Shown: piece by piece, positions 1 through 23,890 of the stretch
Numbering within the stretch: position 1 is the stretch's first letter
Layout of the letters: the number at the start of each line of letters is the position of its first letter
Virus record (IMG/VR): IMGVR_UViG_3300004369_000048
Coordinates: 1 to 38,557 of that record
DNA: 38,557 bases
Source: a virus
Direction: 5' to 3' (one strand)
Made by a program: the position numbers and the translations under genes
The notes under the pieces: model-generated
What the model was told of the DNA's origin: nothing
The model's database searches: none
What the model saw: only the letters and a program-made list of their open reading frames with translations

Positions 1-1488
1 GCCCTTCTTGAAAAATTTGTCAAATAACTCGTCTTCGGAATCGCCTGCTTCAAGCAAATCCTTTAGCCGCTCTCTAGTTTCTAGTTCTGTTCCTATGTAA
101 TGAGATGCATGCGTTAGTTCATGCTCTAAGATTGATCTGTGCGCAAATTTAATTGCGTCCTCATATATCTCTCGCCTTTCATCTTCGCTCTTGTCACCCT
201 CGTTGATTTCATTCATAATTGTGTTAAAAACACGTGTTGAATAGTTGACCAACTTAATATCTCTTCGTGGATCGGGGGCAAACTGCGTTTCTTCGGCTTC
301 GCGATAGGAGATGCTAATCGTCGAAGGCTCATCTTCGACAAGGGCCCACTTGGAGTTCCTTCGTTGAACCCTGGCTCCAGGCTTGAAGGAGGCCCACGCA
401 CCAGGGCCTTTCGTGTCATCTAGTTTAGAAAAATCTCCGTACGTGGCGCCTTCTTGGTCCCATTGGAGTTTGTCGCCTCGTAGCAACCTGGTCTTCCTGG
501 AAGCAATATTCCAGTTGTAATTCTTGAACCTAGGATCAAGCAAAACATTGCTCAGTAGAGCGTAGGCGACTTGCAAAGAGTTGTCGTCAAGTTCATCATT
601 GGGGCTGAGGGCAGGATCCAAAAAATCAGCATAAGAATCGCCTTTAGCAAAACTGGGAAGTGCTTTCATGAAAGCCTGCGCAACGTCTGCACGCGTCTTC
701 AGTGGCTTTCCGTCATTGAAAGCGTCATCAACTGATTTATCTAGGCGTGCGTATGCCGTTTGTATAGATGTCGGCGTGCCGTCAAGATGTTTAGCGAGAC
801 TCGCTGGCTGCCATCGTCTTGAGATGCGAGCAGTGCTCCAAGGTTTGTCGGACTTCTTGGGGAAGTCTGTTGCGTCTCGGCCAGGAAAATTAGGTCGGGT
901 TGTTCTAGAAGAGAACCCATCTCTAGCATTGGCCAGGTTTCGTGCCTGTCTAGTTGCGCGTCGAGCGAACTGAGTTCCTTCTTGCACAAATCCATCTCCA
1001 TCAGCATCTTCGGCATTTGGATCGAATCTGGCGTTACGAACAAAACCTCGGATAGCCCCAGTTGCGTTGCGCCTAGTACGAGAAGCAATTCTTCGGCCGA
1101 TTGCTTTTTCAAATTGGCCCGAACTCAGAGAGGAAACGAAGTCCAGAATGTCATCGGCTTTAGCCTGCATTTCATTCGCCTTTTGGCTCGGAAACGCTGT
1201 TATCACCGGAACGCCATACAACATGTCGTCTTCAATATCCTGGACTTTTTCAATAAATATTTTAGTCCAGCGTTCATTAAGGTCGCTTTTTATCCCGTTC
1301 CATAGAAAGTCATGAAATTTGCTTGACATCACGGGCGATACTGAAGGCAGTGACATCACAGTTGGCCAAAAGTCAACAAACTTCGGATCAGAACCCGGAG
1401 TCAAGATCGCTCCATCTTTTTGATCCTGCGGTTCAGCCAAGTAGTAAATTCTGCTGGATCCGTTATTTGCGACGTGGATGGCTCTCAT
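1..1488 (-). CDS. Putative virion metallopeptidase, HExxH type (C-terminus beyond window)
   Basis: This reading frame opens at ATG 1488 and stays open to the left edge (496 codons seen), so the gene is partial. Its start overlaps the stop of the upstream 1,599-aa gene as ATGA, which implies coupled translation. Residues 155-172 hold RFDPNA, then a DxDxDG calcium-loop-like stretch and VQEGT, nearly matching residues 635-652 of the protease fusion. A GFSSR motif follows at residue 191. HELTH at residues 456-460 is a clear HExxH zinc-binding site, in the context HELTHASHYIG, which resembles HEMFHSAQYEG of the neighbouring protein. The third zinc ligand would lie outside the window. Role inferred: a head-associated or injected peptidase. 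It could also be an inactive structural relative. The fold family is not identified beyond zincin-like. Confidence 0.75.
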   Translation of the reverse strand, partial: MRAIHVANNGSSRIYYLAEPQDQKDGAILTPGSDPKFVDFWPTVMSLPSVSPVMSSKFHDFLWNGIKSDLNERWTKIFIEKVQDIEDDMLYGVPVITAFPSQKANEMQAKADDILDFVSSLSSGQFEKAIGRRIASRTRRNATGAIRGFVRNARFDPNAEDADGDGFVQEGTQFARRATRQARNLANARDGFSSRTTRPNFPGRDATDFPKKSDKPWSTARISRRWQPASLAKHLDGTPTSIQTAYARLDKSVDDAFNDGKPLKTRADVAQAFMKALPSFAKGDSYADFLDPALSPNDELDDNSLQVAYALLSNVLLDPRFKNYNWNIASRKTRLLRGDKLQWDQEGATYGDFSKLDDTKGPGAWASFKPGARVQRRNSKWALVEDEPSTISISYREAEETQFAPDPRRDIKLVNYSTRVFNTIMNEINEGDKSEDERREIYEDAIKFAHRSILEHELTHASHYIGTELETRERLKDLLEAGDSEDELFDKFFKKG

Positions 1489-4400
1489 GCAACACTCCCA
1501 CCCTTGGGCTGCTTGGTTTGAGGACGAATTTTTCTTTTGATCTGCGATGCATTCTTTGCGATTTGGGAGGAAACCAATTGGCGCAAAACTTCCACTGCAT
1601 CGCCCGAGCGGACCTTATAGCCATGCGGCAAAGAGGTAAAAGTATCTGGATCTAGAATATCAATACCCCACCTATTTGGGAAGATACTTTGGACCCCAAG
1701 TTTTTCTAGTCTAATTCTCTCGGCTTCAGCAGCCTTGGCCATTCTTAGGTATGGCATTACGTTAATAATTTCATCAAAATCCGTATTTGTATTGTCGCTC
1801 ATGTAGGAAAAGAATCTGTCGATCTCCTCCGGGGACAATCCGGCTTTTCGTAAAGCGCTCGTTACGGAGACGTTACTCTTGCCCAAATCTTCATCCGAGA
1901 TGAACGCAGGCCTCTTTTTGGCTAGTTCATCCAGATCGACCCTCACATGCTCAATGTCAGACACATCGAAGCCGCCGTGCACAAATCCGTCGTAACGTCC
2001 TCGTCCTTCCAGGACGCGACTCATATCTCCCTTTAGTCCGCCAGCAATTAGGTCGTCAATCAGTTTATTGGATTGTTCTGAATCATTATCACGTATTGCG
2101 TTGAGGAAGTTGTTGGGATCGTTGCTGGTCATCAGAGCAGGCCTGCGCTCGCCAGAGGGTCCGGTTTGTCGACTGATGGATGATCGACGCGACACATCCT
2201 TTTTTAAGACAATTTGGTTATTGCCGGGGACGAATGATCCTGATGCCTCGCTCTGCATCTTGGAGGATGACAAGAATTCCTCATTCCTCAAGGAAAAGCC
2301 AAGACCCGGTTCAGCCGCTTCAGCAAAGCCAGCACTTCGCGCCTTCTCGTGATCCCGGTGAACATAAATGCCAGTGACCGGCCGAAGATTGTCGGGCATG
2401 TCATCCGGGTAATTCATCAACGAATCAACACGTTGTTTGAGAAATGCTTGGGCTGGAGTGGCTGTGGATTCAGAATGACGCAGCCCTCCTTCCAGGAGAA
2501 CATTGTCGACGCCATCCAGATCCATCGGAAACCGGATGCGCCGGTCAAAGCCATCAATGAAACTAAGTGCACTGTTGTCGATCATTTGTCTGACTTGGTC
2601 TGGAGTGTTTGTCGATACGAAAGTTTGAGTCTCTGGGGAAACGGCGGAGACGCGCTGGAAGAATGCCTCAATGTCTTTGAGTATTGGGTCGGGGGTGTCT
2701 ACTGGTGTTCGCTCACCCGCCCCAAATGGGTTAAACCCAATCTTGCCCAACTCCCCCTCAACGGCCCGGCGCTTAATTTCGCTGAATACCGAACTACTCA
2801 GGTCTTCACTTCTGTTCGACTGGCGGCTAGAAAATCCCTCACGTCCCCTTGGGGAACTAGCAGAACCCATCTTGGCCGCACGCAAAAGTCTGTTCCGCTC
2901 ACTAATTTCACCGGCAGATTCAGTCGGTGGCAAACGCTTAACTTTGGAACTAAGTCCCTGGGAGACTTCTTTTAGACTCATTTGTTTCGTCGGAATAGCC
3001 ACCAGAGTTCCGTCGTCGTCAACAGAAATAATTGTCAATTCTCCAGGCGGAATAATGAAGGATTCGTCAAATTCATTTTCTGCATTTTTTCGAAGAACCC
3101 CCCGCCCACCTTTGGGTACTACAATCCGAATTGAACGGCCCTGATTGTCAGGAATACTGAGGCTTGCGTCTTCGTTTTCTGGCCCAGTGATTCTGCCATG
3201 AATCATTGATTCATGAGAGATGACCGAGCCTACGGAGATGTCTGTGGCGCCGTCGATCGAGGCTCTTACCGTGGTTTCCCTATCGACTGGAATCTCATCG
3301 ATATCCTTCATGATGGGCATGACAAACTTGACAAATTCATCAGAGGGCGACATGTCATCTGATGATTCGATTGCCTCACCTTGTCCCATGGCGCGCCGAG
3401 TTGCAGCATTTTTTATGGCTTCATCAAGGCGGGCAGATTTTTGCAGCGATGAAGCGCGTCCTCTGAGGCTTCGTTGCTCATCCAGTCCGCGAACTCGGCC
3501 AGGCTTATACCGAGGGATCAATGGCTCCAACATCAAGCCATACGCAGGGGAACCTGACTGCCGCCATGCGCGCATTTCGTTTTTGGCTAAGTCCCAATCG
3601 GCACGTTTTGCTTTTACGACGCCCCTCTTGCCCCATGACTTTTTGCTATATAGGAAAAGAGCGGACTTCGTTAGGTCGTCTATCCCCTTGATGTCGATGC
3701 CTTCTTGGGAGAGTGTTGTCATCCGGTAGAAGCCGGGAGAAGTTTCTTCTCCCGCCCTTCGCGCAGCAAGTGCTGCATCAGGGGATAGCCGCTCGCGTCT
3801 ATTGTTCTCATTAAGAATTTGTTGCATGCCCCTAAGGGCGAAATACAGACGAGCAATCTCGTCTTCGTCGAGGCCCTCCCCACCTTCTTTCAACTTATCC
3901 AGAAGTTCTTGAGAATATTTCTCCAACTGCTCGTAGCGGCTGTTAAGTTCTCCGCCTTTTATGTAGCGGTAAGATATGTCCTCAAACCCAAATTCATCGT
4001 TCACGTGGGAACGAACCTGCTGCGCAAACGTGGAGTTGCTTAAATTATTCCTGAGAATCTCTTGAATGAGAGCATCAGATCGACCAGTTGGGGTTTGGGC
4101 AGGTAGCAATTCGCCCGTTTCTCTATCCAGGACAACGCTTACTGACTGGGGGACGAGAAGATCGACGGTTTCGTCTACGTCGGGATCAGGCGGATCGATG
4201 GTGGAGGACGGCGACCCAGGCCCGGTGGGAGTAGACGGCGCCATTGGCGGGCTGGGTGTCCCAGGTTCCCAGTCGGCAGGTCCACCAACGTCCTCTATCC
4301 ACTTTGTTGCGTTTTCAACTTCAGGGCCCTTAAGAATGCCCATCTTCTGCAAAGCGTACATCTCGGCCGTTGCTTCGAGAACCATTCGTGGGGCATGGGT

Positions 4401-6284
4401 GTCATCTTGGAATGAACCAGCGAAATAGTCATCGATCATTGATTGGTAATACCCACCAGCGAGGAGGTGAAGCATTGAGCCTTCTAGATCATTGACGCCA
4501 TATGGAGGGATTCTGTCGTTATTGGCCAAGTGGGGCGAAAGCAGAGCAAAGTTCGCCGCTCGCGCCATTTGCGCCCCAGTTACCTCTTCTGCCGGCCCAA
4601 CAACTTCCACCATGTTGCCAGCGCCATCTACGTAGTAGACAGGTTCGCCCGCATCCAACTTGTCGATAACTAATTTCTTGACCCCCTCGTACTGTGCCGA
4701 GTGGAACATTTCGTGGAATGTAATTTGAGCAGCCCGCGCCTCAATGGACCCGTACAACGCTTCTGTCATATCTGAGCCATACGCCTTTTGATAGGCGATC
4801 ATCCAGGCTTCGGTTCGCGACTGATCCTGCATCCAAGACCTAAGGGCATCCATTCTTTCTGCTTCAGTAGCATCACTGTCTGCCGATATCTCGGTGAACT
4901 TGCCCTTTTTCACTACGTATGTAGGCTGGCCATCTTTATCAAAAAGATATTGCTTAAGAACATGTGCCTGGAAATTAATTTTGACTACAGCACGGCCAGT
5001 GGCGGCGTCAATTGTAGTGAACCCAAATTCATTAAGAGCCCTTGGGTCTTTGGGGTCATGGATGAGGTTTTCGATTTTGGATGTGGTCTTGGCAAATTCA
5101 GGATTTTCTTCGAACGACTGAAGCATCGCTGAAAGAACTCCACGCATGGTTGCCGTATGTTCTCGCTCAAGTTTGTCAAAAATATCTCCGAGAAATTGAT
5201 CGCCCCTATCAACTGCGTCGATGACCGCTGCGATGCCATCGTCGTCTGGGCTAAATAGACCAGCAAAACTTTCGCGTAGACGTTCTCTGTAGATGGCAAG
5301 ATTTTCTTTAGCACTTAGGTCATCGTCCCATTCAAATTTTTCGCCCCATAGGTCCGTCAGTAGACCCTTCCACTCAATGTCCCATTCACCATTCTTGGAG
5401 AGGACGTCGATAATCTCAAATAGGTCCTCGTTCATTTCGGTGGACATCGATGTGCCGAGACGCCCCTTTAGGCTATTGATTGCCTTGTCTCGCGCCTCCA
5501 TCGCCTGCTGGAGATCCTCCTCTGTGCCTCCGACACTGTCCGTAAGCCCCCTAAGGCGAGCAAGTTTTTCTTTACTGACCGGTTCTACGTAATCAAAATT
5601 GCGGCGGAACAGACGCCCAATGTCGTGGATAGCCTCACGCAGAAATCCAATTGGCTCAAAGCAGTTAGTACCAAACTCGTCAGTAAATTGGTTGGCTGCT
5701 GGGGTGCCGGGAGGGCACCTAAATTTGCCAAGATCATCAACAATCAGACCAGCCCCTCGCGCTGCTCGTCCGCCTACGGAACCACCTGGCAACATTTGGC
5801 TAAGGCGTCGACCTAGCCCCTTTTCATCTTGGTCCTCGCCGGTGATTGGTCCCCCAGTTCTGGGGTCCATATCATGCCAAGTTACCTTTATCTTGGGACG
5901 GCTTTTCAGCCGTTCGTGCATTTCACGCTTATACCTGCGTAATTCTTCTTCCGTAGGTTCTGGCTCAGGTGTGACCCAACCGTAATTAGGTTGACTTCCT
6001 GGCCGGGTCATTTCACTGTGAGAAATCCAGTTCTTAAAAAATTGCCCAGGCTTCTTCTTCGCGGTTGGAGACCAACGTATTTCTGGTTCCCGTTTCTTCA
6101 GTCCTCCAGAAGATTCTTTTTCGGATCCTTGGTTCTGATTGGGGAACAACGCCTTAGCGGAGAAATCTGCATTGAGCGTACGTTGCTTGGAGATAACCCG
6201 AAGCGAGCGCGTAAAGTCATGTGCTGCAGCACGGATGTCGCGGCGATTTGAACCCTGGCGCCGCAAATGCAGTTCATCTGCCAT
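1485..6284 (-). CDS. Multidomain virion protein: zincin peptidase plus degenerate ART-like domain
   Basis: This is a 1,599-aa protein; GAGAGAGG upstream supports the ATG at 6284. A charged N-terminal part precedes a CPPGTP segment with C190 and C208. HEMFH at residues 524-528 is an HExxH zinc site. LEATAEMY about 110 residues later (E637) is a plausible third ligand, as in gluzincins. A Pro/Ser/Thr-rich linker lies near 665-700. Residues about 1000-1090 resemble the ADP-ribosyltransferase fold: R1007 in a TVRAS strand, a VPKG strand and an IIPPG loop. The usual STS and ExE motifs are replaced by ESM and DES, so activity is doubtful. GLSS (1110) and GFSS (1150) motifs follow. The C-terminal 450 residues are unrecognised. 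Its place among head genes suggests a capsid-internal or ejected protein; a host-directed effector role is inference. Confidence 0.75.
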   Translation of the reverse strand: MADELHLRRQGSNRRDIRAAAHDFTRSLRVISKQRTLNADFSAKALFPNQNQGSEKESSGGLKKREPEIRWSPTAKKKPGQFFKNWISHSEMTRPGSQPNYGWVTPEPEPTEEELRRYKREMHERLKSRPKIKVTWHDMDPRTGGPITGEDQDEKGLGRRLSQMLPGGSVGGRAARGAGLIVDDLGKFRCPPGTPAANQFTDEFGTNCFEPIGFLREAIHDIGRLFRRNFDYVEPVSKEKLARLRGLTDSVGGTEEDLQQAMEARDKAINSLKGRLGTSMSTEMNEDLFEIIDVLSKNGEWDIEWKGLLTDLWGEKFEWDDDLSAKENLAIYRERLRESFAGLFSPDDDGIAAVIDAVDRGDQFLGDIFDKLEREHTATMRGVLSAMLQSFEENPEFAKTTSKIENLIHDPKDPRALNEFGFTTIDAATGRAVVKINFQAHVLKQYLFDKDGQPTYVVKKGKFTEISADSDATEAERMDALRSWMQDQSRTEAWMIAYQKAYGSDMTEALYGSIEARAAQITFHEMFHSAQYEGVKKLVIDKLDAGEPVYYVDGAGNMVEVVGPAEEVTGAQMARAANFALLSPHLANNDRIPPYGVNDLEGSMLHLLAGGYYQSMIDDYFAGSFQDDTHAPRMVLEATAEMYALQKMGILKGPEVENATKWIEDVGGPADWEPGTPSPPMAPSTPTGPGSPSSTIDPPDPDVDETVDLLVPQSVSVVLDRETGELLPAQTPTGRSDALIQEILRNNLSNSTFAQQVRSHVNDEFGFEDISYRYIKGGELNSRYEQLEKYSQELLDKLKEGGEGLDEDEIARLYFALRGMQQILNENNRRERLSPDAALAARRAGEETSPGFYRMTTLSQEGIDIKGIDDLTKSALFLYSKKSWGKRGVVKAKRADWDLAKNEMRAWRQSGSPAYGLMLEPLIPRYKPGRVRGLDEQRSLRGRASSLQKSARLDEAIKNAATRRAMGQGEAIESSDDMSPSDEFVKFVMPIMKDIDEIPVDRETTVRASIDGATDISVGSVISHESMIHGRITGPENEDASLSIPDNQGRSIRIVVPKGGRGVLRKNAENEFDESFIIPPGELTIISVDDDGTLVAIPTKQMSLKEVSQGLSSKVKRLPPTESAGEISERNRLLRAAKMGSASSPRGREGFSSRQSNRSEDLSSSVFSEIKRRAVEGELGKIGFNPFGAGERTPVDTPDPILKDIEAFFQRVSAVSPETQTFVSTNTPDQVRQMIDNSALSFIDGFDRRIRFPMDLDGVDNVLLEGGLRHSESTATPAQAFLKQRVDSLMNYPDDMPDNLRPVTGIYVHRDHEKARSAGFAEAAEPGLGFSLRNEEFLSSSKMQSEASGSFVPGNNQIVLKKDVSRRSSISRQTGPSGERRPALMTSNDPNNFLNAIRDNDSEQSNKLIDDLIAGGLKGDMSRVLEGRGRYDGFVHGGFDVSDIEHVRVDLDELAKKRPAFISDEDLGKSNVSVTSALRKAGLSPEEIDRFFSYMSDNTNTDFDEIINVMPYLRMAKAAEAERIRLEKLGVQSIFPNRWGIDILDPDTFTSLPHGYKVRSGDAVEVLRQLVSSQIAKNASQIKRKIRPQTKQPKGGSVA

Positions 6285-7984: not shown

Positions 7985-10900
7985 TCACGTATTGGGGATG
8001 TTGACAGAGCGCCCTTGCGAGTTTGTCCTCTGTTGCGTGCGGGATCCAATTTCTTCTTGAGTTTTATTGATAAATGTTGCCATCCCTGATCGAGCCATCA
8101 TGTCAAGCAGTCGAGCAAAGGCTTCCATTCGCTCTTCTCCCCCGATCGACATCTGCCGGTCGATAACAACCATGATTGCGTCCATGATCTCGTCAAGTTC
8201 ACTCTGATTGACGAGGATCTCACCTGCATCGGTCCTCTTTGACCCGGTCTTCGACGCCCCTTGTCGTTTGATGATTTGCTCAAGTAACTTCAGGCCTTTA
8301 GCCGTAGCCCGGTCGCCGTTTTTCTCGGCTTCGCGGATTTCCTTGGGGATTGATTCTTCAATATTTTTGAAGAATGTGGCCTGGCCCTTAACCTCCGTTC
8401 GGCCAGCCTTTTCCGAGGAAAACCCCTGGTCGCGAGCGTTAAGGTAAGCAGATATATTTTTCTTATAGGGCTTGATGACCGAGGCAAATCCATTGCGCTC
8501 GACTTCATCTATGAACTCATCTCCCTGGCGCCCTAACTTTTCAGACGCTTCTGTGGTTCCTCGTTGAATGAAGGGGTCGTCACTAAATTGCTCTTGAAGA
8601 TCCTCGACACGACTCAGCAAACTCCTAGCGGTCCGCACACTCCGGGCTTCTGCTGGCGTCAACTCGTCAAGAGAATTGACCTCCTCCAGGTAGTTCTCCA
8701 GCGAGTCAACGAGCGAGTCCAACTGGGACATTGTCAGGTCATCGCTGTCAGTGAGGATTGAGAGAACGTCTTCCCACGCCTCGGCATGCAGTTCATCTGC
8801 CTCGCCGGAGTCGGCCATGGATCTAGCGTTGTCCCTTTGCTTATTGATGCTATTGTCAAGGCTCCTGAGGATTTTCTTCCTAGCAGCCTTAGCGTCCTTG
8901 GGCGTAATCTCTCGCTCCTCCGCTACCTCGGGAGTCTGGCTTTCGGTCGCACGTGCTTGAGCCCTCTCTGCTGCACGGTCACGGTCGGCATCGGACATCG
9001 ACTCAATATCTGAACCGATATTGCGACGGCGCTCGACCATTCTCTCGTCCAGGCGGCGGCGACGGCGAGCAGCCGGAGACTCCTCAGCCTCAAGTGATCG
9101 TTCTGCAGTCTCATTAACTAGACGCTTCCAGTCTGCTTCGCGAAGGCCAGAATTTTCAGGCTTAAGATTGGTGAACAGTTCTTCTTCCTGCTCCTCTGGG
9201 CTCATCAGTTCCCAGTCGGCAGGTTTTACCGCCGCCCAGGTTTTGCCCCTGAAACGCTTGTCATCGCCTTCGCCGACCGGGCGACCCCTCTTTCGGGGGG
9301 CGACTTCAGATGAGAACCCAGACCTCTTGCTCCCATACAGGGGCATTCCCTTCCCACGAGGGCTGTAATTGGCATAATAATCGTGCAGACGGATCCAATC
9401 CTTGGGTGAAAGTTCGCCGTCTTGCGCGTCGTATTTTTCGGCCAAGCGTCTAACGACGCCAAATCCACCTTGCCGTTTCGCCCAAAAGATGAATTCATCT
9501 TGCATCGACTGCGGGATATCGTCAGGAGCGCCGTTGTTGGGGCGCCGGCTGGAGAAACCATGGACCTTAAGTGGATTGGACCGTGCCTCCGCAACTTGGG
9601 GAGAAACATACTTGCCCTTAGGGTCTATAGCAGCCAATTCAAGCACGTCACGCATTTGTCGGGGGTAATCGATGCCCTCGTAGTCCAAGGCTTGCAATCC
9701 ATCAATGACTTGACCGTAGGTCTCTTTGTCCATGCGGACCGAGCCATTCCTGGCGTTGGTGGCCGCATCAACGTAAGAAGCAAGTCCCTCCTTGGCCCTG
9801 TTTCGTGTGACGCGTTGAGAGGCCAGGCCGATCGACTTCCGAATGTCGCCAATCTGATCATCGGTGAGAGTCACTTCAACCGGGCCCTTGGCGTCAACGC
9901 GCCCAGTCTTGCTTGGAGTTGGGCGCGCCGCTCCGGCAGCGTCTCTAAGCAAGGCTTCTGCATAATCCTCTTCTCGCGCTCGCATATTATTTGCGAGGTC
10001 AGAGATTCGCTTGGCTACAGCGAGCCTGTCGGCATCCGACATGGAATCCATCTTGCCGTCTAAAGCATCAATTGCTTCATTGAAGACATCGGTCTCATTC
10101 CGATCCAAGCCACCCAAATTAGTTACTCGGTCTCGGGTTCTTGTCAGGCGCTGAGATGGGGTCGGTTTGTTGCCAACTACGTCACCATTGGGCTTAATGG
10201 TGTAGCGAGAGTTCCTCTTGACTTTTGACAACTCACTACCAATACTTGGAGCATTTTCGATTGCAGATGCCTGCATTTCTGAAATCCCGCCAAAGATATA
10301 GAAGCCAGTTCCATCTTTGTAGCGGACGTACATTTCCTCTGCGCCGGCATCGTAATGAATGTAATTGACTGCGCTACTGGCTTTGGCTCCGGGTGTCGGA
10401 TAGATCTGGCGAGTTGTGCCAAGTCCATTTCCCGCTGGCCGAGCAGACGAGAAGCCTTCTCGTGATTCTTTTGACCCAAGATATTTGCTGTATCTCTTAG
10501 CGCGATCCCTGTCCTTGTCTCGGGCGGCTTTTTTATCGGCTACTTTGAAAAACTCTCCGGCAACACGAGGGTGGCCATGAGTTTCAAATTGCTGCTTATC
10601 GCCCTGAGCGATGTACAAATCGATCTGAGATTCGTTGACTTTGTCAAATAGTTCAACAAGGTCGTCGTACCAATTGCCTAGTTCGTAACGCTCGTATTCT
10701 GCTTCGTCATTTTTAGCGAATGGGTTTGTTTCGAACTCACGAATAAATTTCTCTCGTGTCATGCCTTCCATGAGGCCGGAAAGTTCTTCACGGTCAGAGT
10801 TGATTTCCGCTGCAATTTTATCGATTTCTTCAGTGGCCTCTTCGATATCGATTTTGGCATCGTCCAACCTTGTGTCGGCGTCTTGCCATCGGCCATTTTC

Positions 10901-13900
10901 GTCAGAATAGAAAGATAGAATTTCGTCGACGGCCGAATCGAGTTCTTCCCACTCGGCGTACAGGTCGTCGTAGGCCTCGTCAGTTTCTCCGCCCTGCAGC
11001 GGATTGAAGTCAGGGTTGTCCTCCCAGAACTTCTGCAACGCGTCAAGGCGCGATTCCAGTTCAGACATGTTTGAACTGGGTTCTTTGATATGCCACCTAC
11101 CCTTGGAAGATAGTCCCTCTGGGCGAGTTGCTGGTTTGTAACCTAGGAGCGTTTCGATTTCTTCGTCATTGAAGCCAAGTTCTCTAAGTCTGTTTTCACG
11201 ACGCTCTGCAAGTTCATTCCGGAACTTCTGGCTGTCAAAAACGGTGCGCCCGCGCTCGTCTCTTTGGATCATCCCATCGCCACGCTCCAAGCGAGATGAC
11301 AGGCCATCGCTCGTTGGGATGCCTTTTTTCGCTTTGTGGTTTTCGATGATCGAGCGAACAACATCCGAACGACTCATGTTGTTTTCGTCCATCAGTTCCG
11401 AAATAGAATTGCCGCGATCGAACTTTTCACGGATGGCAGAGGCCAGTTTGGGGTCTTCTTGTGATGCCCTAACAAACTTGCCGTCATCTGTACGTCGAAC
11501 ACGAAGTGCTCCATCGCCAGTTATTTCCCAGTATTCGGAGTCACGCGCGTCATATTTGCCGGACTGAAGACGCTTCATTCGGTCTGTCATTTCACGAAGA
11601 CGGTCTTCGTTGCGTTCTTCTCTGGTGGAGGGGGCTACGGATCGCTTGCGACCCTCGGTTCTACTCAGCAACGCGAAAGGTTTATTGCTCGAAATTGCAC
11701 GAGCGTTAGATCGTGCTTCGCCTCGTTCGGTGCGGTTCAGTAGGACGCTGAATGGCGTCTCCGGTCCGCCCGTTGATTGCTGGCGATTTTCGAGAATGAC
11801 TCGGATGGTCTCGTCCAGTTCACGAGCGCGTTTTCCTGGATCCCGATCAGTGGTAGGCCGCCCAAACCTACGCGCCTCAGATAATCCACCTGAGGGCGAC
11901 TTTGGCGTCTTCGGTTGTTGATTACCAAGGGCATTCGCTAGTGGCTTGACTCCTGGGGTTGCCGGGCGCTCAAAGGCTGTGCCCTCCTGGACCAGCCCGT
12001 CATTGTCCCCGTCTACTGCGTTAGGGTCAAAGCGGGCGGTCGCGAATCGCGCCGCCCTACGGCCTTTTCCCCCACCACCGCCAATCCGCCCTCCCATCGC
12101 TTTGTAGGAAAAGTTCCCCATAGCGTTTTGGATTGCTGCCCTGAATTCGGGCGTTGCTCCAGATTTCACGACAATCCCCTGTTCCGTGACCTCTGCGGTA
12201 GCACCGTAGTAGTCAAGAATTGGATCGATGTGGGACTTGGTACTGAAAGCCTCGTGGATTTCGCAAGGGATAAGAAGTGCGTCCTTCTCTTCAATCTCCC
12301 CAGCAGAAGAAATGACCTCCTGCAGAAGCGAAACGATGTTCTTCAGTTTGTTCATGTTTCGCGTGCTGATGACCCGACCAGCCTTGATGTCAATTTCCAT
12401 TGTTTCGAGAAAATCAGCAGTGGCTGGCTCAAGCAGCGATTTTTCGTCGTTATCAAACTTCTGAATGATTCGAAGAAGTCTCGGCATGGTCTCATCCTCA
12501 TCAGGACGAGCCATGCGACGAGGGATATCAATTTCTGGCTTTTGCTCGGGCTTGGTTGGAACAAACTCCATCATCACCCGTTCGGGCTTGCCAAACATGT
12601 AGGAGCCGGATTCATCTTCTCGGTGGTAGGACATGCGGAATGTCATCCGCTTCGGGCCCTTCATGGCGTGGAAAACAACCAGGTTCTCACTCGCTTCGAT
12701 GATTTCGATTGGGTACTGAGAGCGACGGCTCATCTCCATTAGCAGTGCATTGCGCTTTTCTGGGCTGAGAGGCGTAGCCAGTCCATCCTCGAAAATGTCG
12801 GAGTTTGACTCCTCCTCTTCCTGCTCTTCGCGCCGTCGAGCAGCGATCATCTGCTGCCAGCGCTGACGAATAGCATCAGGCATCTGCTGTCCCATGTAAT
12901 GGCATTTTTCGTCTTCGCTCATCAATTGGAATTCAGCATCATCTACGTCATCGAAGAAGTCAAAGTCTTCTGAATAATCGTAATCGTCCTTCTTCTTCGT
13001 GTTTTCGTATCGCTCCAGAAGGCGGCGACCCTTGGCAGCCAACTTTGCTGCGTCGGCCATATTCTTTGGAACTGGTTCGCCCCACGCAGCAGCCGAGAGA
13101 GCGAGTCGAGTGGGTTTGCCATTCGGCTTCTTCATAGGCCCTGAAGGGTTGGTGAAGAATCGAGTCAGGAAAGATCCCTTGCGTCGCATCTTTTGGGGGG
13201 TATCGGCAGCCCCCATGACGCCAGGCTTCAGGTTTGCCCCTTCGGTGCGAGCAAAATGGCGACGGCCAGCAGCAGTTAGGCCGCCCTTGGGGTCGCGAAG
13301 TCTGTCGCCCTTTTCATCGAAAGCGAGTCCATCGTGTTCGAAGAACCATGACTCATCTTCGTCTGATTGCAGAGAGTCCACCATGTTGTCAATATCTGCA
13401 AAGAAGATTGGGTCGTTCTTCACCGAAATTGTGCCCGTCAGTTGGTTTGCACCATGAAGGACAGGAGAGCATTCATAAAGTTCGACTTCACGAAGGATGT
13501 TCGCCTGTCGGCTGGGGTCAAACGTGGCTTGCAGGGTCTTGTACCCGATGCTCCACTCCTGGTCTTTCCCAAAAAACGCGACGCTAGCGAAGGCCTCGCG
13601 ACCCTTCTCTGTGCTGAGATTGAACTGCACCTTTGCGTAAAGACCGCCAATGCTGGCCTTCTTCATCTTTTCCGGGAGACGAGGATCATTGGGGCCCACC
13701 TCGTAGATTTCAAGAACCTTGCCAATGGGGTCATTCCAACTATGCCCCCATACCACGCGAGGTTTGCGGCGCTTCAGGCTTTCAGTAAAAGCGCCAGGCT
13801 GAATGATGTCCCCGACGGAATCCTTGTTCCCGATTCCGGCAACAAAACACTCAACGATTCCTTCGGCCTTGTCAATATTGATCTGGCCAGGGTTCTGCTT

Positions 13901-13933
13901 GATTTGCAGGTTAGATTCAAACTTGTTCGGCAT
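7985..13933 (-). CDS. Prohead protease with giant multidomain C-terminal extension
   Basis: Residues 1-170 are an HK97-type (S78) prohead protease, with H64 in WGHSW, S128 in EWSIGY and an ELYECSPVLHGA strand (E154). These enzymes mature the procapsid. The usual family length is near 200 aa, but this frame continues to 1,982 aa. ATG 13933 has GGAGGG just upstream and is preferred over a TTG 24 bases earlier. Recognisable later parts are a DUF6321-like domain (about 216-310, GGLTAAGRRHF to GRRLLERY), a Gly-rich segment with DxDxDG (641-646), a helix-turn-helix-like stretch (842-866), a KTSC domain (about 1186-1246) and an AT-hook-like RGRP (1549-1552). Coiled-coil-rich charged regions fill much of the rest. 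G(F/L)SS motifs begin at 877, 940, 1160, 1459, 1539 and 1837. Autoprocessing into several products is a strong possibility but is not shown. Confidence 0.85.
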   Translation of the reverse strand: MPNKFESNLQIKQNPGQINIDKAEGIVECFVAGIGNKDSVGDIIQPGAFTESLKRRKPRVVWGHSWNDPIGKVLEIYEVGPNDPRLPEKMKKASIGGLYAKVQFNLSTEKGREAFASVAFFGKDQEWSIGYKTLQATFDPSRQANILREVELYECSPVLHGANQLTGTISVKNDPIFFADIDNMVDSLQSDEDESWFFEHDGLAFDEKGDRLRDPKGGLTAAGRRHFARTEGANLKPGVMGAADTPQKMRRKGSFLTRFFTNPSGPMKKPNGKPTRLALSAAAWGEPVPKNMADAAKLAAKGRRLLERYENTKKKDDYDYSEDFDFFDDVDDAEFQLMSEDEKCHYMGQQMPDAIRQRWQQMIAARRREEQEEEESNSDIFEDGLATPLSPEKRNALLMEMSRRSQYPIEIIEASENLVVFHAMKGPKRMTFRMSYHREDESGSYMFGKPERVMMEFVPTKPEQKPEIDIPRRMARPDEDETMPRLLRIIQKFDNDEKSLLEPATADFLETMEIDIKAGRVISTRNMNKLKNIVSLLQEVISSAGEIEEKDALLIPCEIHEAFSTKSHIDPILDYYGATAEVTEQGIVVKSGATPEFRAAIQNAMGNFSYKAMGGRIGGGGGKGRRAARFATARFDPNAVDGDNDGLVQEGTAFERPATPGVKPLANALGNQQPKTPKSPSGGLSEARRFGRPTTDRDPGKRARELDETIRVILENRQQSTGGPETPFSVLLNRTERGEARSNARAISSNKPFALLSRTEGRKRSVAPSTREERNEDRLREMTDRMKRLQSGKYDARDSEYWEITGDGALRVRRTDDGKFVRASQEDPKLASAIREKFDRGNSISELMDENNMSRSDVVRSIIENHKAKKGIPTSDGLSSRLERGDGMIQRDERGRTVFDSQKFRNELAERRENRLRELGFNDEEIETLLGYKPATRPEGLSSKGRWHIKEPSSNMSELESRLDALQKFWEDNPDFNPLQGGETDEAYDDLYAEWEELDSAVDEILSFYSDENGRWQDADTRLDDAKIDIEEATEEIDKIAAEINSDREELSGLMEGMTREKFIREFETNPFAKNDEAEYERYELGNWYDDLVELFDKVNESQIDLYIAQGDKQQFETHGHPRVAGEFFKVADKKAARDKDRDRAKRYSKYLGSKESREGFSSARPAGNGLGTTRQIYPTPGAKASSAVNYIHYDAGAEEMYVRYKDGTGFYIFGGISEMQASAIENAPSIGSELSKVKRNSRYTIKPNGDVVGNKPTPSQRLTRTRDRVTNLGGLDRNETDVFNEAIDALDGKMDSMSDADRLAVAKRISDLANNMRAREEDYAEALLRDAAGAARPTPSKTGRVDAKGPVEVTLTDDQIGDIRKSIGLASQRVTRNRAKEGLASYVDAATNARNGSVRMDKETYGQVIDGLQALDYEGIDYPRQMRDVLELAAIDPKGKYVSPQVAEARSNPLKVHGFSSRRPNNGAPDDIPQSMQDEFIFWAKRQGGFGVVRRLAEKYDAQDGELSPKDWIRLHDYYANYSPRGKGMPLYGSKRSGFSSEVAPRKRGRPVGEGDDKRFRGKTWAAVKPADWELMSPEEQEEELFTNLKPENSGLREADWKRLVNETAERSLEAEESPAARRRRRLDERMVERRRNIGSDIESMSDADRDRAAERAQARATESQTPEVAEEREITPKDAKAARKKILRSLDNSINKQRDNARSMADSGEADELHAEAWEDVLSILTDSDDLTMSQLDSLVDSLENYLEEVNSLDELTPAEARSVRTARSLLSRVEDLQEQFSDDPFIQRGTTEASEKLGRQGDEFIDEVERNGFASVIKPYKKNISAYLNARDQGFSSEKAGRTEVKGQATFFKNIEESIPKEIREAEKNGDRATAKGLKLLEQIIKRQGASKTGSKRTDAGEILVNQSELDEIMDAIMVVIDRQMSIGGEERMEAFARLLDMMARSGMATFINKTQEEIGSRTQQRTNSQGRSVNIPNT

Positions 13934-13996
13934 CGGCCCTCCGATTGTCAATGTCAATGATAGGGCACTGGTTCGATACCTGCGCGCAACAATAGA

Positions 13997-14031: not shown

Positions 14032-16056
14032 TTACTGAAAGGTGGCGGCGGCAGCGGCTCGCCAAGCCCGACGCGCTTCATCCTGGGCAATTTGGAATCG
14101 ATTTTTCCCCATCAGTTGTGTGAAATGGCTGACGACAGCAGCGCGTAGAACGACATGTCGGTGCTCGGCGTCCTTGACCGATAGAGAATTAAGAATTTCT
14201 CTGGATATAACCTCTCGGGTGCGGAAGTTCACATCTTGAATTCGAGAAATCTGAGAATTTACGTGGGCAATCAAGTCCTCCGAAACAAATTCTGGGGTTT
14301 GGCCCGACTTAATTACGATTGAGTCTCTCAAGATTGCATTAAGCACTGGTCTAACGTCTTCTTCGACCTGCCGATCCCAGACATCCTGGGGCATGACGCT
14401 GTCTACATCAAGCAGTCCATCGGCAAGGGCTTTGCGGTTTTTGGCTCCGCTGATTTTTTCTAGAACAACTCTCTGCTGACGTTCAAAAATCCGTTCCAGA
14501 CTTCTCCCCAGGATTTCCGTCCATCGCTCTAGGTCTGGCGATGCCTCGGTTTCCTTTACTTCTGCCTCAGTTTCCTTTACTTCCATTCCCTGGTTCGGAT
14601 CCGCCAATTGGTTGGGGGGCAGTGGGGCTTGAGTATTCTGGACACCAGCATCCTGCGCCTCAGCGGCGAGAGCGCCTTGCATGGTGTTGGGGTCCAGGGG
14701 TTCCTGGCCTGGCGCCTGTCCTTCTGCCTCGGGAGCCCCCTGACCCGGGGGCATGCCGGGCATACCAGGAGCAGCACCAGGCGCACCTGGGATTTGAACG
14801 CTTGCGGGGTTGGGCATTTCCTTCTCAGTATTCCCGATAGGCGTCAGGTTGGGATTCTGGAGCATTGAGTCCGCCAGTTCGGACTTGACCTTCTTGCGAC
14901 CAGTAATCTCTCGGTATTCGTTGGCGGTAATTAGGCCTGTCTGGAACTCCTGGAGAACATAGCGGTGTCGTTCCTGTCGGTACATGACCAGGCTGGGAAC
15001 ATCCTCAATGTCGAAATCGACGTAGTAGCGTTCATCCAATTCGTCAAGGGCTCGGGCGAGAGGCTCCAGGTGGGGCATCATTGTTTCGCTCCAGAAAACC
15101 CTAATTTCCTCGCCGGCATTGCTGAATGTCCGTCCTGAGGCATTGCCGATAACTGATTCCGGCACACCAAATGATGCCAGGATTTCCTCCTTGGTGATCT
15201 GGCGCATTTGGATATAGGCAGCATCTCGGGGGTTTGACGAGGTGTCCACAAAATCAACGCCGTCATCAGCGGCAATTACACTGGTTTGGCCAACGCGACC
15301 CAGATTGCCCCTAAAGCGATTGCGCAACTCGTCCTTATCTTCATCGCTAATCTCGCCACGCACGACAAGGAGGCCCCCTGGCCGTCCATCGTTGAGTAGG
15401 AAGTTGCGGTTGTAGAGTTTCGCTAGATTCTCAATCTCAATGGCGACCCCGGCAGACTCCATTGGCGTCAGGGACAGGTAAGGATCGAGGGGGTGGGGCC
15501 GCCGAACCCACACAACATCTTCGGGCTTCATGATGATCTTGTCGCCGTTAGGCATCAAAACTTCATAACCAGCCACGAATCGCTTCGGGTCAGGGATGGG
15601 AGCAGTTGATTGCGGAGGAAGCAAGTTGAGCCCGATAATACGGCCATCCCTACCGCGCACCTTCTCGATAAAAACGCCACGCGTACTCATCAATAGTTGA
15701 GAAGAAAGCCTGTACCGGAAAATAAAGGAATTCTCCCCAATATTTGTTTTGGTATTGAGGATGTCTAGGATCGAGCCCTGCTGGAGCCGGCTGCTTCTGA
15801 CAATTTGCCCCATTGGATCATTGTCCTTGCGAAGGATAATGGGCAGCCGCGCTTGGTTGCCAGCAATAGCGTCAATGCACCTGGAAACCCAAGTGACCTT
15901 CTGCATGCCCTCGCGATAGGCTCGCTCAATATCCCAGGGGTCGCGATATGCTCGACCAGCAAAACTTGCATTATGGGCTACAGGAGCGCCGGGCCCAATC
16001 GCGGCCTTGGTAGACTCTCCTGGAAGAGATTTGTTTTCAGTCGAGTTCCATGCCAT
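14032..16056 (-). CDS. HK97-type portal protein with long C-terminal extension
   Basis: This is a 674-aa protein. Residues about 30-400 match the HK97-type portal family: WVSRCIDAIAGNQARLP near the start, a LNLLPPQST strand, EDVVWVRRPHP, SLTPMESA, a clip-like PGGLLVV segment and the FGVPESVIGN...TFSNAGEE stretch. The portal forms the dodecameric ring through which DNA is packaged and to which the tail attaches. Family members are usually 400-500 aa. Here a Pro/Gln/Gly-rich linker (about 410-490) leads to a helical domain with repeated KETEAEVKETEA. That extra domain may contact the internal head proteins encoded just downstream. The start lies 2 bp after the stop of the 63-aa membrane protein gene, so the two are probably co-translated. 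Confidence 0.93.
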   Translation of the reverse strand: MAWNSTENKSLPGESTKAAIGPGAPVAHNASFAGRAYRDPWDIERAYREGMQKVTWVSRCIDAIAGNQARLPIILRKDNDPMGQIVRSSRLQQGSILDILNTKTNIGENSFIFRYRLSSQLLMSTRGVFIEKVRGRDGRIIGLNLLPPQSTAPIPDPKRFVAGYEVLMPNGDKIIMKPEDVVWVRRPHPLDPYLSLTPMESAGVAIEIENLAKLYNRNFLLNDGRPGGLLVVRGEISDEDKDELRNRFRGNLGRVGQTSVIAADDGVDFVDTSSNPRDAAYIQMRQITKEEILASFGVPESVIGNASGRTFSNAGEEIRVFWSETMMPHLEPLARALDELDERYYVDFDIEDVPSLVMYRQERHRYVLQEFQTGLITANEYREITGRKKVKSELADSMLQNPNLTPIGNTEKEMPNPASVQIPGAPGAAPGMPGMPPGQGAPEAEGQAPGQEPLDPNTMQGALAAEAQDAGVQNTQAPLPPNQLADPNQGMEVKETEAEVKETEASPDLERWTEILGRSLERIFERQQRVVLEKISGAKNRKALADGLLDVDSVMPQDVWDRQVEEDVRPVLNAILRDSIVIKSGQTPEFVSEDLIAHVNSQISRIQDVNFRTREVISREILNSLSVKDAEHRHVVLRAAVVSHFTQLMGKNRFQIAQDEARRAWRAAAAATFQ

Positions 16057-22097: not shown

Positions 22098-22766
22098 GTG
22101 GTTCACGAAAATGGGTTTGTCAGGCTTGATGGGTGCATGGCTGATGATTTGTCTGTCGTGAATGCTGCTCGGGTCTCGTTTGGCACTCGCAAGACGGAGA
22201 TGGACGATTCCGACAAGGGGTTGATTGGCTTCTTGATGCGCGAGCGTCACGGCACGCCGTTCGAGCACAACTCGTTCAGATTCCATGTGAAGTGTCCGAT
22301 CTTCGTCGCCCGAGAATGGTTTCGTCACAGGATCGGATCGTTTAACGAAATATCTGGCCGTTACACGGTTCTTGAGAACGAAGCCTACGTCCCAGTTGGG
22401 GAATATGTTCGTGAGCAAGTGGGGAAGCCCGGCGCTTACACGTTCACGCCACTCGACAAGGATCTGGCGGATGATGTTTCAAAGACGATCAGTGATCAGG
22501 TCAATCAATCTTTCCGGACGTACAACTATCTGATCAAGATGGGTGTAGCAAAAGAAATTGCCCGGGTAGTTCTTCCTGTCGCAACCTTTACAGAGTTCTA
22601 CTGGACGGTCAACGCCCGGGCGTTGATGAACTTCCTTTCGCTTCGCACGCACGAGACTGCTCAGCGTGAGATTCGTGATTACGCCTTCATTGTCGAAGGC
22701 TGCTTCAAAGATCAAATGCCGATAACGTTTGACTTCTGGGAGAAAAACGGTAAAGTGGCTCCATGA
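22098..22766 (+). CDS. thyX: FAD-dependent thymidylate synthase
   Basis: This 222-aa enzyme makes dTMP from dUMP using FAD and methylene-tetrahydrofolate. The ThyX signature RHRxxSxNxxSxR is complete: R76, H77, R78, S81, N83, S86 and R88. The length is normal for the family. The GTG start follows GGAGG at 22088-22092, directly after the ParB-like stop. It supplies thymidine nucleotides for phage DNA synthesis. The 3' end overlaps the PAPS-reductase-like gene as ATGA. Confidence 0.96.
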   Translation: MVHENGFVRLDGCMADDLSVVNAARVSFGTRKTEMDDSDKGLIGFLMRERHGTPFEHNSFRFHVKCPIFVAREWFRHRIGSFNEISGRYTVLENEAYVPVGEYVREQVGKPGAYTFTPLDKDLADDVSKTISDQVNQSFRTYNYLIKMGVAKEIARVVLPVATFTEFYWTVNARALMNFLSLRTHETAQREIRDYAFIVEGCFKDQMPITFDFWEKNGKVAP

Positions 22767-23890
22767 CTCGGCAAAGAATGTTCCTGGACATAAATGTCCT
22801 AGAAGCCGCGCGCGCCCGAATTAGGCATGTGTATGACACCTTCGACACTGTGTGCGTTCAGTTCTCGGGAGGGAAGGATTCTACGGCGGTTTTGTATCTG
22901 GCCAAGGAAGTGCACGAAGAACGTGGTCTTGGTCCTGTGAAAGTAATCTTCCGTGACGAGGAAATGCTTAGCCCAGCAACCGTGTCATACGTCGAGATGG
23001 TACGTGATTTCGACTGGGTTGACATGGAATGGTATTGCCTGCCGTACGGTGCAGAAATTTGGGTGCTTGGTCGTCGTCAGACCACAATTCTGTGGGGGGA
23101 TAGGCGACGAGAAGAGGGTCGATGGGTCAGAGACATGCCCCCTGGAGCAATAACTGGCTACCACTTTGGTCTTGACCACTCGAAGAATCTGCCCCAACCG
23201 CTTGATTATTATCAAATGCAAGGCAAAAAGGGGAGCGTCGCTTTTATCACCGGCGTCAGAGCAGCCGAATCGATGGTCCGCTATAGATCGCTTGTTCAGA
23301 AGTTGCATGAAAATTACATTGTTCACCCCTACGGCCTCAGTAAATCCGTGCCACTAAAGTTCGCTAAGCCTATCTATGACTGGAATGTCAATGATGTCTT
23401 CAAGTTCATTTCGGAGGAACATAACGCCCCCTATTGCGAGTACTACGACCTTGCGGCCTTGACCGGCTCTAACACCAGAGTTGGCATCCCGCTCCATGCA
23501 ACGGCGATTCGAAGGATTGGAGACGTTGTAGCGACTGAGCCCGAGTTCTACGACAGGCTTTACGAGTGTTTTCCGCAGATCGATGCTCAACGGCGCTGGT
23601 GGCCAGATTTCGACGTCGAGAGGTTAATCGACGATTATGCCCAGGATGGATGGGAAGGGGTCTCTGAGTTTATTTCTACTTACATCATCGGGCCCAGTAA
23701 AACACGGCGCGCTAAATCATTTGTCGCGGAATTTAGGAAAAAGCACATTGCTGATCCGTATTCGTACCCAATTAATTACTTGATCAGAAATTTACTGTTG
23801 AGCGAGTTGGCGCGTGGGAAGTCCGCATCACCCGTAGGTCCGAAGACTAGGGCTGACACTCAAAGAAAGATGGAATTTAGCGATGACTGA
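22763..23890 (+). CDS. PAPS-reductase/DndC-like PP-loop protein (IbrA-like)
   Basis: This is a 375-aa protein of the adenine-nucleotide alpha-hydrolase superfamily. The PP-loop SGGKDS is at 35-40 and a GVRAAES motif at 164-170, both typical of PAPS reductases and DndC-type proteins. The C-terminal ECGxH catalytic cysteine motif of true PAPS reductases is absent, as is an obvious Fe-S cysteine set. Assimilatory sulfate reduction is therefore unlikely. It overlaps a small ParB-fold gene downstream, the same pairing as IbrA/IbrB. The biochemical role of such phage pairs is not established; nucleotide, RNA or DNA thiolation chemistry is one possibility. Confidence 0.85.
   Translation: MTRQRMFLDINVLEAARARIRHVYDTFDTVCVQFSGGKDSTAVLYLAKEVHEERGLGPVKVIFRDEEMLSPATVSYVEMVRDFDWVDMEWYCLPYGAEIWVLGRRQTTILWGDRRREEGRWVRDMPPGAITGYHFGLDHSKNLPQPLDYYQMQGKKGSVAFITGVRAAESMVRYRSLVQKLHENYIVHPYGLSKSVPLKFAKPIYDWNVNDVFKFISEEHNAPYCEYYDLAALTGSNTRVGIPLHATAIRRIGDVVATEPEFYDRLYECFPQIDAQRRWWPDFDVERLIDDYAQDGWEGVSEFISTYIIGPSKTRRAKSFVAEFRKKHIADPYSYPINYLIRNLLLSELARGKSASPVGPKTRADTQRKMEFSDD

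Follow-up and report, generated by a model that had tools for sequence, protein, structure and literature searches.

The gpO protein of phage P2 and the UL26 protein of herpesviruses are protease-scaffold fusions of a few hundred amino acids (aa) that release themselves. The protease gp245 of phage SPN3US removes the C-terminal propeptide of its own chain and cleaves ejection proteins after A-X-E, with Ser preferred at P1' (PMC10052503). As for polyvalent proteins, excerpts of Iyer et al. 2017 (PMC5512222) state that some of them (DdrB and DarA of phage P1) are cleaved before packaging or in its course and end up in the head, and that their assemblin-like peptidase is always C-terminal. In the present study, we analyzed the 38,557-base DNA of an uncultivated virus (IMG/VR record IMGVR_UViG_3300004369_000048, positions 1 to 38,557; hereafter, the window), in which the open reading frame (ORF) at 7985..13933 on the minus strand has 1,982 codons and begins with a Peptidase S78 domain, followed by a C-terminal extension of the polyvalent type. 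Judged from its sequence, this protein belongs to a large family of S78-headed polyvalent polyproteins, whose cleavage is predicted and of which no description was found in the literature searched.

The family resembles the polyvalent proteins in that its members are giant multidomain ORFs of the head block, with ArdC-N, MPTase-PolyVal, ParB and ART domains in the family or its neighbours. It differs from the polyvalent proteins of the above excerpts in that the S78 peptidase is N-terminal in 87 uncultured loci and in the window, and in that its reiterated, lineage-specific junction motif is not among the features described there (PMC5512222). A short recognition motif, self-cleavage, and cuts in cargo or ejection proteins, which characterize the class of SPN3US gp245 and T4 gp21, are also predicted for the family; however, the substrates of gp245 come from separate genes and carry N-terminal propeptides, whereas much of the putative cargo in the family is fused behind the protease. 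The family also shares with P2 gpO and UL26 the order of protease first and extension behind and, by prediction, the self-release, but the tail of those two proteins is a scaffold with neither multi-module cargo nor a reiterated site. Among cultured phages, the relatives are Gordonia phages GMA6 and DalanDe and Brevibacterium phage Cantare, whose HK97-type S78 proteases share the catalytic domain alone (42-43% identity, same triad residues). In these phages the protease gene adjoins the capsid gene, and in the uncultured family it likewise lies in a portal-capsid block. The proteases of GMA6 (484 aa) and Cantare (417 aa) are short, unlike the long uncultured members. DalanDe gp27 is 1,633 aa long, but its protease lies at residue ~1,122 and a strongly reiterated motif is absent.

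The gene in the window starts with the ATG at 13933 and its stop codon is at 7985-7987. Direct reading of the sequence showed the Shine-Dalgarno-like GGAGGG just 5' of the start (minus strand, 13937..13942, that is, 13942-13937), which is a good ribosome-binding site. The Pfam profile of Peptidase_S78 covered residues 26-169 (13427..13858; here and below, features of this gene lie on the minus strand) with 40.7 bits against a cut-off of 21. His-64, Ser-128, and Glu-154 were invariant among 30 aligned relatives, and we take them, from knowledge of the family, to be the expected S78 catalytic triad. The profile, these conserved His, Ser and acidic residues, and the location among head genes predict that the protein is an S78 prohead protease. 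The initial annotation, which gave no strand, had placed a prohead protease inside a 1,982-aa polypeptide, and the ORF proved to be intact. That is, an independent contig, L006, carries the same gene with a full-length frame (1,981 aa, 90% aa identity), and the frame is maintained through 11 indel columns. The nonsynonymous (dN) and synonymous (dS) divergences of the extension between the two were 0.063 and 1.27, respectively (dN/dS 0.05), and by this measure strong purifying selection acts on the extension as coding sequence.

A search of viral contigs with the protease alignment found at least 424 stretches encoding close relatives, 80 of which were retained, and three additional loci were found in genome contigs with the same alignment. 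The family survey comprised 87 uncultured loci and the window. The protease was N-terminal in 87 of the 87 loci and in the window, always starting within the first 28 residues, while the length of the ORF ranged from 387 aa (L009) to 4,422 aa (G016) and that of the extension varied tenfold. Complete ORFs of G012 (3,987 aa) and G016 (about 4,420 aa, 4,422 as counted) were obtained after fetching further DNA. The size that the initial annotation regarded as unusual is thus unusual when compared with typical S78 enzymes such as those of GMA6 and Cantare, but not within this family. The gene order was constant: portal, protease giant, a protein of 520-670 aa, a second large or giant ORF, further ORFs, and then the capsid gene, which lies ~22 kb (G012) or 51 kb (G016) downstream where the contig extends that far. 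The extension of the window protein gave zero matches against 50,697 cultured phage records. In the G016 lineage (L106-L108; contig positions 42601-97000), giant ORFs of 4,422, 3,362, 2,740, and 1,825 aa occupy ~50 kb from the portal to the capsid gene in the head block, and the first of them ends in an array of winged-helix repeats. Another long member, L090 (2,690 aa with a masked stretch), is on a contig binned as the Phycisphaerae metagenome-assembled genome ETNP2_MAG_79; this may be a misbinned viral contig.

In the window protein, the motif G[FL][SA]S occurred 9 times, compared with 0.16 in shuffled sequences. Two of these matches, GLAS at residues 1369 and 1383 (9776..9829), were rejected as sites and judged to be chance matches because they lie within predicted helices and are not conserved as a motif in relatives. 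The seven others are GLSS at residues 877-880 (11294..11305), the first clear site of the window, and at 940-943 (11105..11116), where L021 has GLAS; GFSS at 1160-1163 (10445..10456), which precedes the KTSC module, at 1459-1462 (9548..9559), where relatives have GFAS, GLSS, GFRS, or GFGS, at 1539-1542 (9308..9319), where they have GFRS or GLRS, and at 1837-1840 (8414..8425), where other lineages have GMRS, GLAS, or GLRS; and GFAS at 1815-1818 (8480..8491), with GMRS nearby in the homologous stretch of L029, L030, and L082.

The motifs of other members were found by a blind count of short patterns. In L036, G[ML]RS occurred 9 times against 0.09 expected; the copies of GMRS numbered 9 in L036, 6 in L029, 5 each in L030 and L026, and 4 in L032. 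L012 and L021 use G[FL][SAR]S, and L033 uses GLxSR. The 3,987-aa protein of G012 uses (P)LGSRS, with 22 matches to [LM]GS[RSK] against 0.57 expected. The G016 lineage was at first regarded as motif-free, but a wider look overturned this impression and revealed SSRSxR, with 6 copies of SRSxR in the 4,422-aa homologue. When aligned, these motifs have the core [GS]-[FLMS]-[SARG]-S, often with Arg two residues later (34 of 47 sites in the GF/GL group and 14 of 46 in the GMRS/GLRS group). A single homologous junction reads GFSSekagrt in the window, GMRSeqagrt in L036, GMRSeregra in L024, and GLASstekaprt in L083. The codons of the motif vary within and between genomes, and at each copy the window and L006 use different ones. 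Therefore, the motif is maintained at the protein level, and a DNA-level repeat was ruled out as its origin. When the spelling of the motif was mapped on the protease tree, it changed 4 times in 29 proteins, whereas 500 shuffles gave a mean of 12.4 changes and a minimum of 8. Positions 44, 80, 99, and 155 of the protease differ between the GFSS and GMRS groups, a difference that may reflect phylogeny alone.

We also examined where the motif is placed. Five of the 7 credible sites of the window are in or at the edge of stretches with a predicted local distance difference test score (pLDDT) below 50, and 2 are in loops; in G012, 0 sites fell within recognised domains. The flanks of the motif are less rich in hydrophobic residues. 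In ~20 members the first copy is at residues 453-504, roughly where the stand-alone enzymes (387-484 aa) stop, and the short members have essentially no copies. The word of each lineage also appeared in other giant ORFs of its head block: 2 copies in the 1,599-aa and 1 in the 496-aa protein of the window, 4 and 8 in the 2,494-aa and 2,114-aa proteins of L012, and 4 SRSxR copies each in the 3,362-aa and 2,740-aa proteins of G016. Portal, capsid, and replication proteins encoded on the same contigs did not contain it; one stray match in the tape measure of the window (expected 0.3) and one in the terminase of L026 were near chance. As negative controls, the giant ORFs of DalanDe (no pattern exceeding 3 copies), GMA6, and Cantare, the 1,357-aa protein of L009, the 1,376-aa protein of G012, the 1,825-aa protein of G016, and the window tape measure showed no strongly reiterated scattered motif.

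The modules of the extensions were scanned in 25 family members. The profile scan found KTSC in 5, DUF6321 in 3, and ParB-N in 2 of the 25, while ArdC-N with MPTase-PolyVal (G012) and an array of winged-helix domains (G016) each occurred in a single member. Because the MPTase domain was found in one long member only, S78 is the sole protease common to all. The ArdC module of G012 (residues 3031-3293) sits between the motif sites at 3012 and 3414, and Caulobacter phage phiCbK has this module as a free-standing antirestriction protein. The extension modules are the domain repertoire of polyvalent proteins as given in the excerpts (PMC5512222). The ArdC/MPTase, KTSC, and ART modules of relatives and neighbours support the cargo role that the initial annotation had proposed.

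In the window protein itself, DUF6321 covers residues 213-284 (13082..13297; Pfam E 3.4e-27). The KTSC profile matched residues 1186-1233 (10235..10378) with 21.9 bits, under the Pfam cut-off of 25, but the AlphaFold2 model of residues 860-1982 matched KTSC crystal structures in Foldseek (template modelling score 0.73 on the target, root-mean-square deviation 2.0 A, probability 1.00, E 0.17-0.22); the E-value of ~0.2 probably reflects the long multi-domain query. Thus three unrelated domains, S78, DUF6321, and KTSC, are in one protein of the head block. KTSC was the sole credible Foldseek match for residues 860-1982, and residues 1-682 gave no match below E 0.001 in the PDB. MPTase, ArdC-N, ART, and ParB were not found in this protein by profile. 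The other domains of the extension are predicted to be folded and have no family name; one is a helical C-terminal module (residues 1841-1982, 7988..8413) that is kept in relatives. Of the five recognisable modules that had been claimed, therefore, S78, DUF6321, and KTSC can be named, but the other folds cannot. The prediction of structure by segments, which had been recommended as a check, located linkers and folded domains and matched the KTSC fold, but left residues 1-682 without a PDB match. Within the latter, an alpha/beta domain (residues 390-447, 12593..12766, pLDDT ~90) is a family-wide part of the protease core; it is predicted confidently as a helix plus a sheet, and its best structural matches are cystatin-like and not significant. 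An inhibitor-like pro-region at this position would be interesting. Near the end of the conserved core is an EF-hand/dockerin-like acidic motif, FDPNAVDGDNDGLVQEGT (residues 635-652, 11978..12031). This motif (FDPNAxDxDxDGxVQEGT) and its surroundings have a second copy in the 496-aa protein, at 892-1119 on the minus strand (47% over 74 residues), where a copy of GFSS follows ~20 residues after it.

The S78 core is fused, in one intact and selected frame, to ~1,300 aa of motif-separated modules. The motif copies are most likely self-cleavage sites, which would give a polyprotein that delivers polyvalent cargo modules. We propose the following sequence of events. During assembly of the prohead, the protease would become concentrated within the shell. 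It would then cut its own chain in cis, and further giant head proteins that the phage encodes in trans, at the motifs. These cuts would release the core enzyme and separate cargo modules, and the modules would stay associated with the packaged DNA and reach the host together with it, as polyvalent and ejection proteins are known to do. The self-trimming of SPN3US gp245 and its cuts in ejection proteins are a close precedent (PMC10052503). Cuts near residues 877, 940, 1160, 1459, 1539, 1815, and 1837 would divide the window protein into ~8 pieces; the side of the invariant Ser at which the bond would break cannot be read from the sequence. We consider it rather probable that the ORF in the window encodes such a head-maturation polyprotein, predicted to cleave itself at the junction motifs. 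For the more general proposition, namely that tailed phages have a true polyprotein whose N-terminal prohead protease frees itself and up to ~20 cargo modules including ArdC, with a site that drifts together with the enzyme and with further giants cut in trans, we see an even balance.

Several points weigh against this reading. The autoprocessing that the initial annotation guessed from size alone gains support from the reiterated, lineage-specific motif, but cleavage at the motif is inferred and not observed, and packaging and injection of the modules are likewise inferred. The motif was present in 0 of 11 capsid ORFs of relatives, so that the capsid protein was rejected as a bearer of the same motif; therefore, the same enzyme, if it matures the capsid, must accept another sequence. 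The first clear site of the window, at residue 877, is ~200 residues beyond the end of the conserved core, and the degenerate GLSE that occurs near residue 697 lacks a conserved counterpart in L006. In the G012 lineage the motif is confined to the protease protein. Finally, co-inheritance of motif and protease is expected of any trait that follows phage phylogeny.

An unlikely explanation, but the principal competitor and one that deserves serious weight, is that the motif serves as a peptide for docking or cargo loading, each copy binding the inner capsid surface, the portal, or a scaffold. The uncut chain or chains would then be tethered in the head, and the protease would process the capsid protein only, perhaps together with its own core. 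HK97-fold shells are known to have short peptides that dock to the capsid, as in encapsulin cargo, which counts in favour of this idea. Enrichment of the motif, its placement in linkers, and its spread to several giant head ORFs are also expected from docking, which would also account for much of the codon variation and the tracking of the tree. However, the first copy lies near the end of the stand-alone protease, copies bracket an ArdC module that is free elsewhere, and up to 22 copies in a chain would be very redundant for tethering. The position of the first copy and the bracketed ArdC module favour cutting over docking.

That the protein is a protease-scaffold fusion like P2 gpO and UL26, with the extension serving as an internal scaffold to be degraded and expelled, seems improbable to us. 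The domain order is equal, and long helices, modelled at residues 986-1150 and probably forming a coiled coil, would suit a scaffold. On the other hand, the modules of relatives are folded, DNA-binding, or anti-restriction, and the extension varies tenfold in length. As described for HK97-type phages, the scaffold domain is located in the N-terminal region of the capsid protein, and the capsid proteins of relatives retain their own N-terminal region of ~100 aa; the scaffold role suggested by the initial annotation thus found no positive evidence. We also regard as quite improbable a polyvalent protein without reiterated cleavage, in which the protease is one more effector domain and the motif a habit of linkers that spread as modules were duplicated or recombined. 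Modules clearly shuffle among lineages, and assemblin-like peptidases occur in polyvalent proteins according to the excerpts (PMC5512222). However, the codons vary from copy to copy, as they do from the window to L006, and the flanks are mostly unrelated, and therefore the copies are not recent DNA duplicates; in addition, the spelling shifts along with the protease clade. An error of sequencing or assembly that fused separate genes, which had been named as the possible refutation, is practically ruled out because L006 has the same frame at 90% identity with dN/dS of 0.05 and there are many other long homologues.

The genes around the protease were as follows. The portal gene (14032..16056, minus strand; Pfam E 1.2e-49) is directly upstream and contains no motif. 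The portal has 674 aa in the window, whereas L009 has a 493-aa portal followed by a separate MuF-like ORF of 242 aa; the window portal is possibly a portal-MuF fusion. Downstream are a 553-aa acidic protein, the 1,599-aa protein, and the 496-aa ORF, which is cut by the window edge. The 1,599-aa ORF (1485..6284, minus strand), the second giant of the head region, has its motif copies at 2946-2957 and 2826-2837, and the third ORF (1..1488, minus strand) has its copy at 907-918. Zincin-like motifs of the HExxH type occur in both, HEMFHSAQ (HEMFH) in the former and HELTHASH (HELTH) in the latter. No relative of the 1,599-aa protein was found when it was used as a query against viral contigs; its positional counterpart in the genome of L012 has 2,494 aa and an ART-PolyVal domain. 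No capsid gene was recognised within the 38,557 bases, and it probably sits past the left edge of the window. The remaining half of the window encodes TerL, recombination genes, sheath, tube, and tape measure, so that the phage is contractile-tailed. Between the thymidylate synthase gene and a second ParB-like gene lies one similar to 3'-phosphoadenosine-5'-phosphosulfate reductase (22763-23890, plus strand); relatives retain a gene of this kind, and the short-protease phage L009 is among them.

Self-processing polyproteins, in which a protease cuts the chain that contains it, are a typical feature of RNA viruses. A widespread polyprotein of tailed phages that marks its own cutting sites would, if true, be unexpected: a single gene may encode the cutting enzyme together with a group of proteins that are packaged in the head. 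The motif would then offer a sequence rule for head cargo in uncultured phages. That is, an ORF with the motif of its lineage would be a candidate substrate, and the segments between motif copies, such as the ArdC module, would be candidate effector units. The series GFSS, GMRS, LGSRS, and SSRSxR, together with the corresponding proteases, may provide a natural test of the coevolution of a capsid protease and its site.

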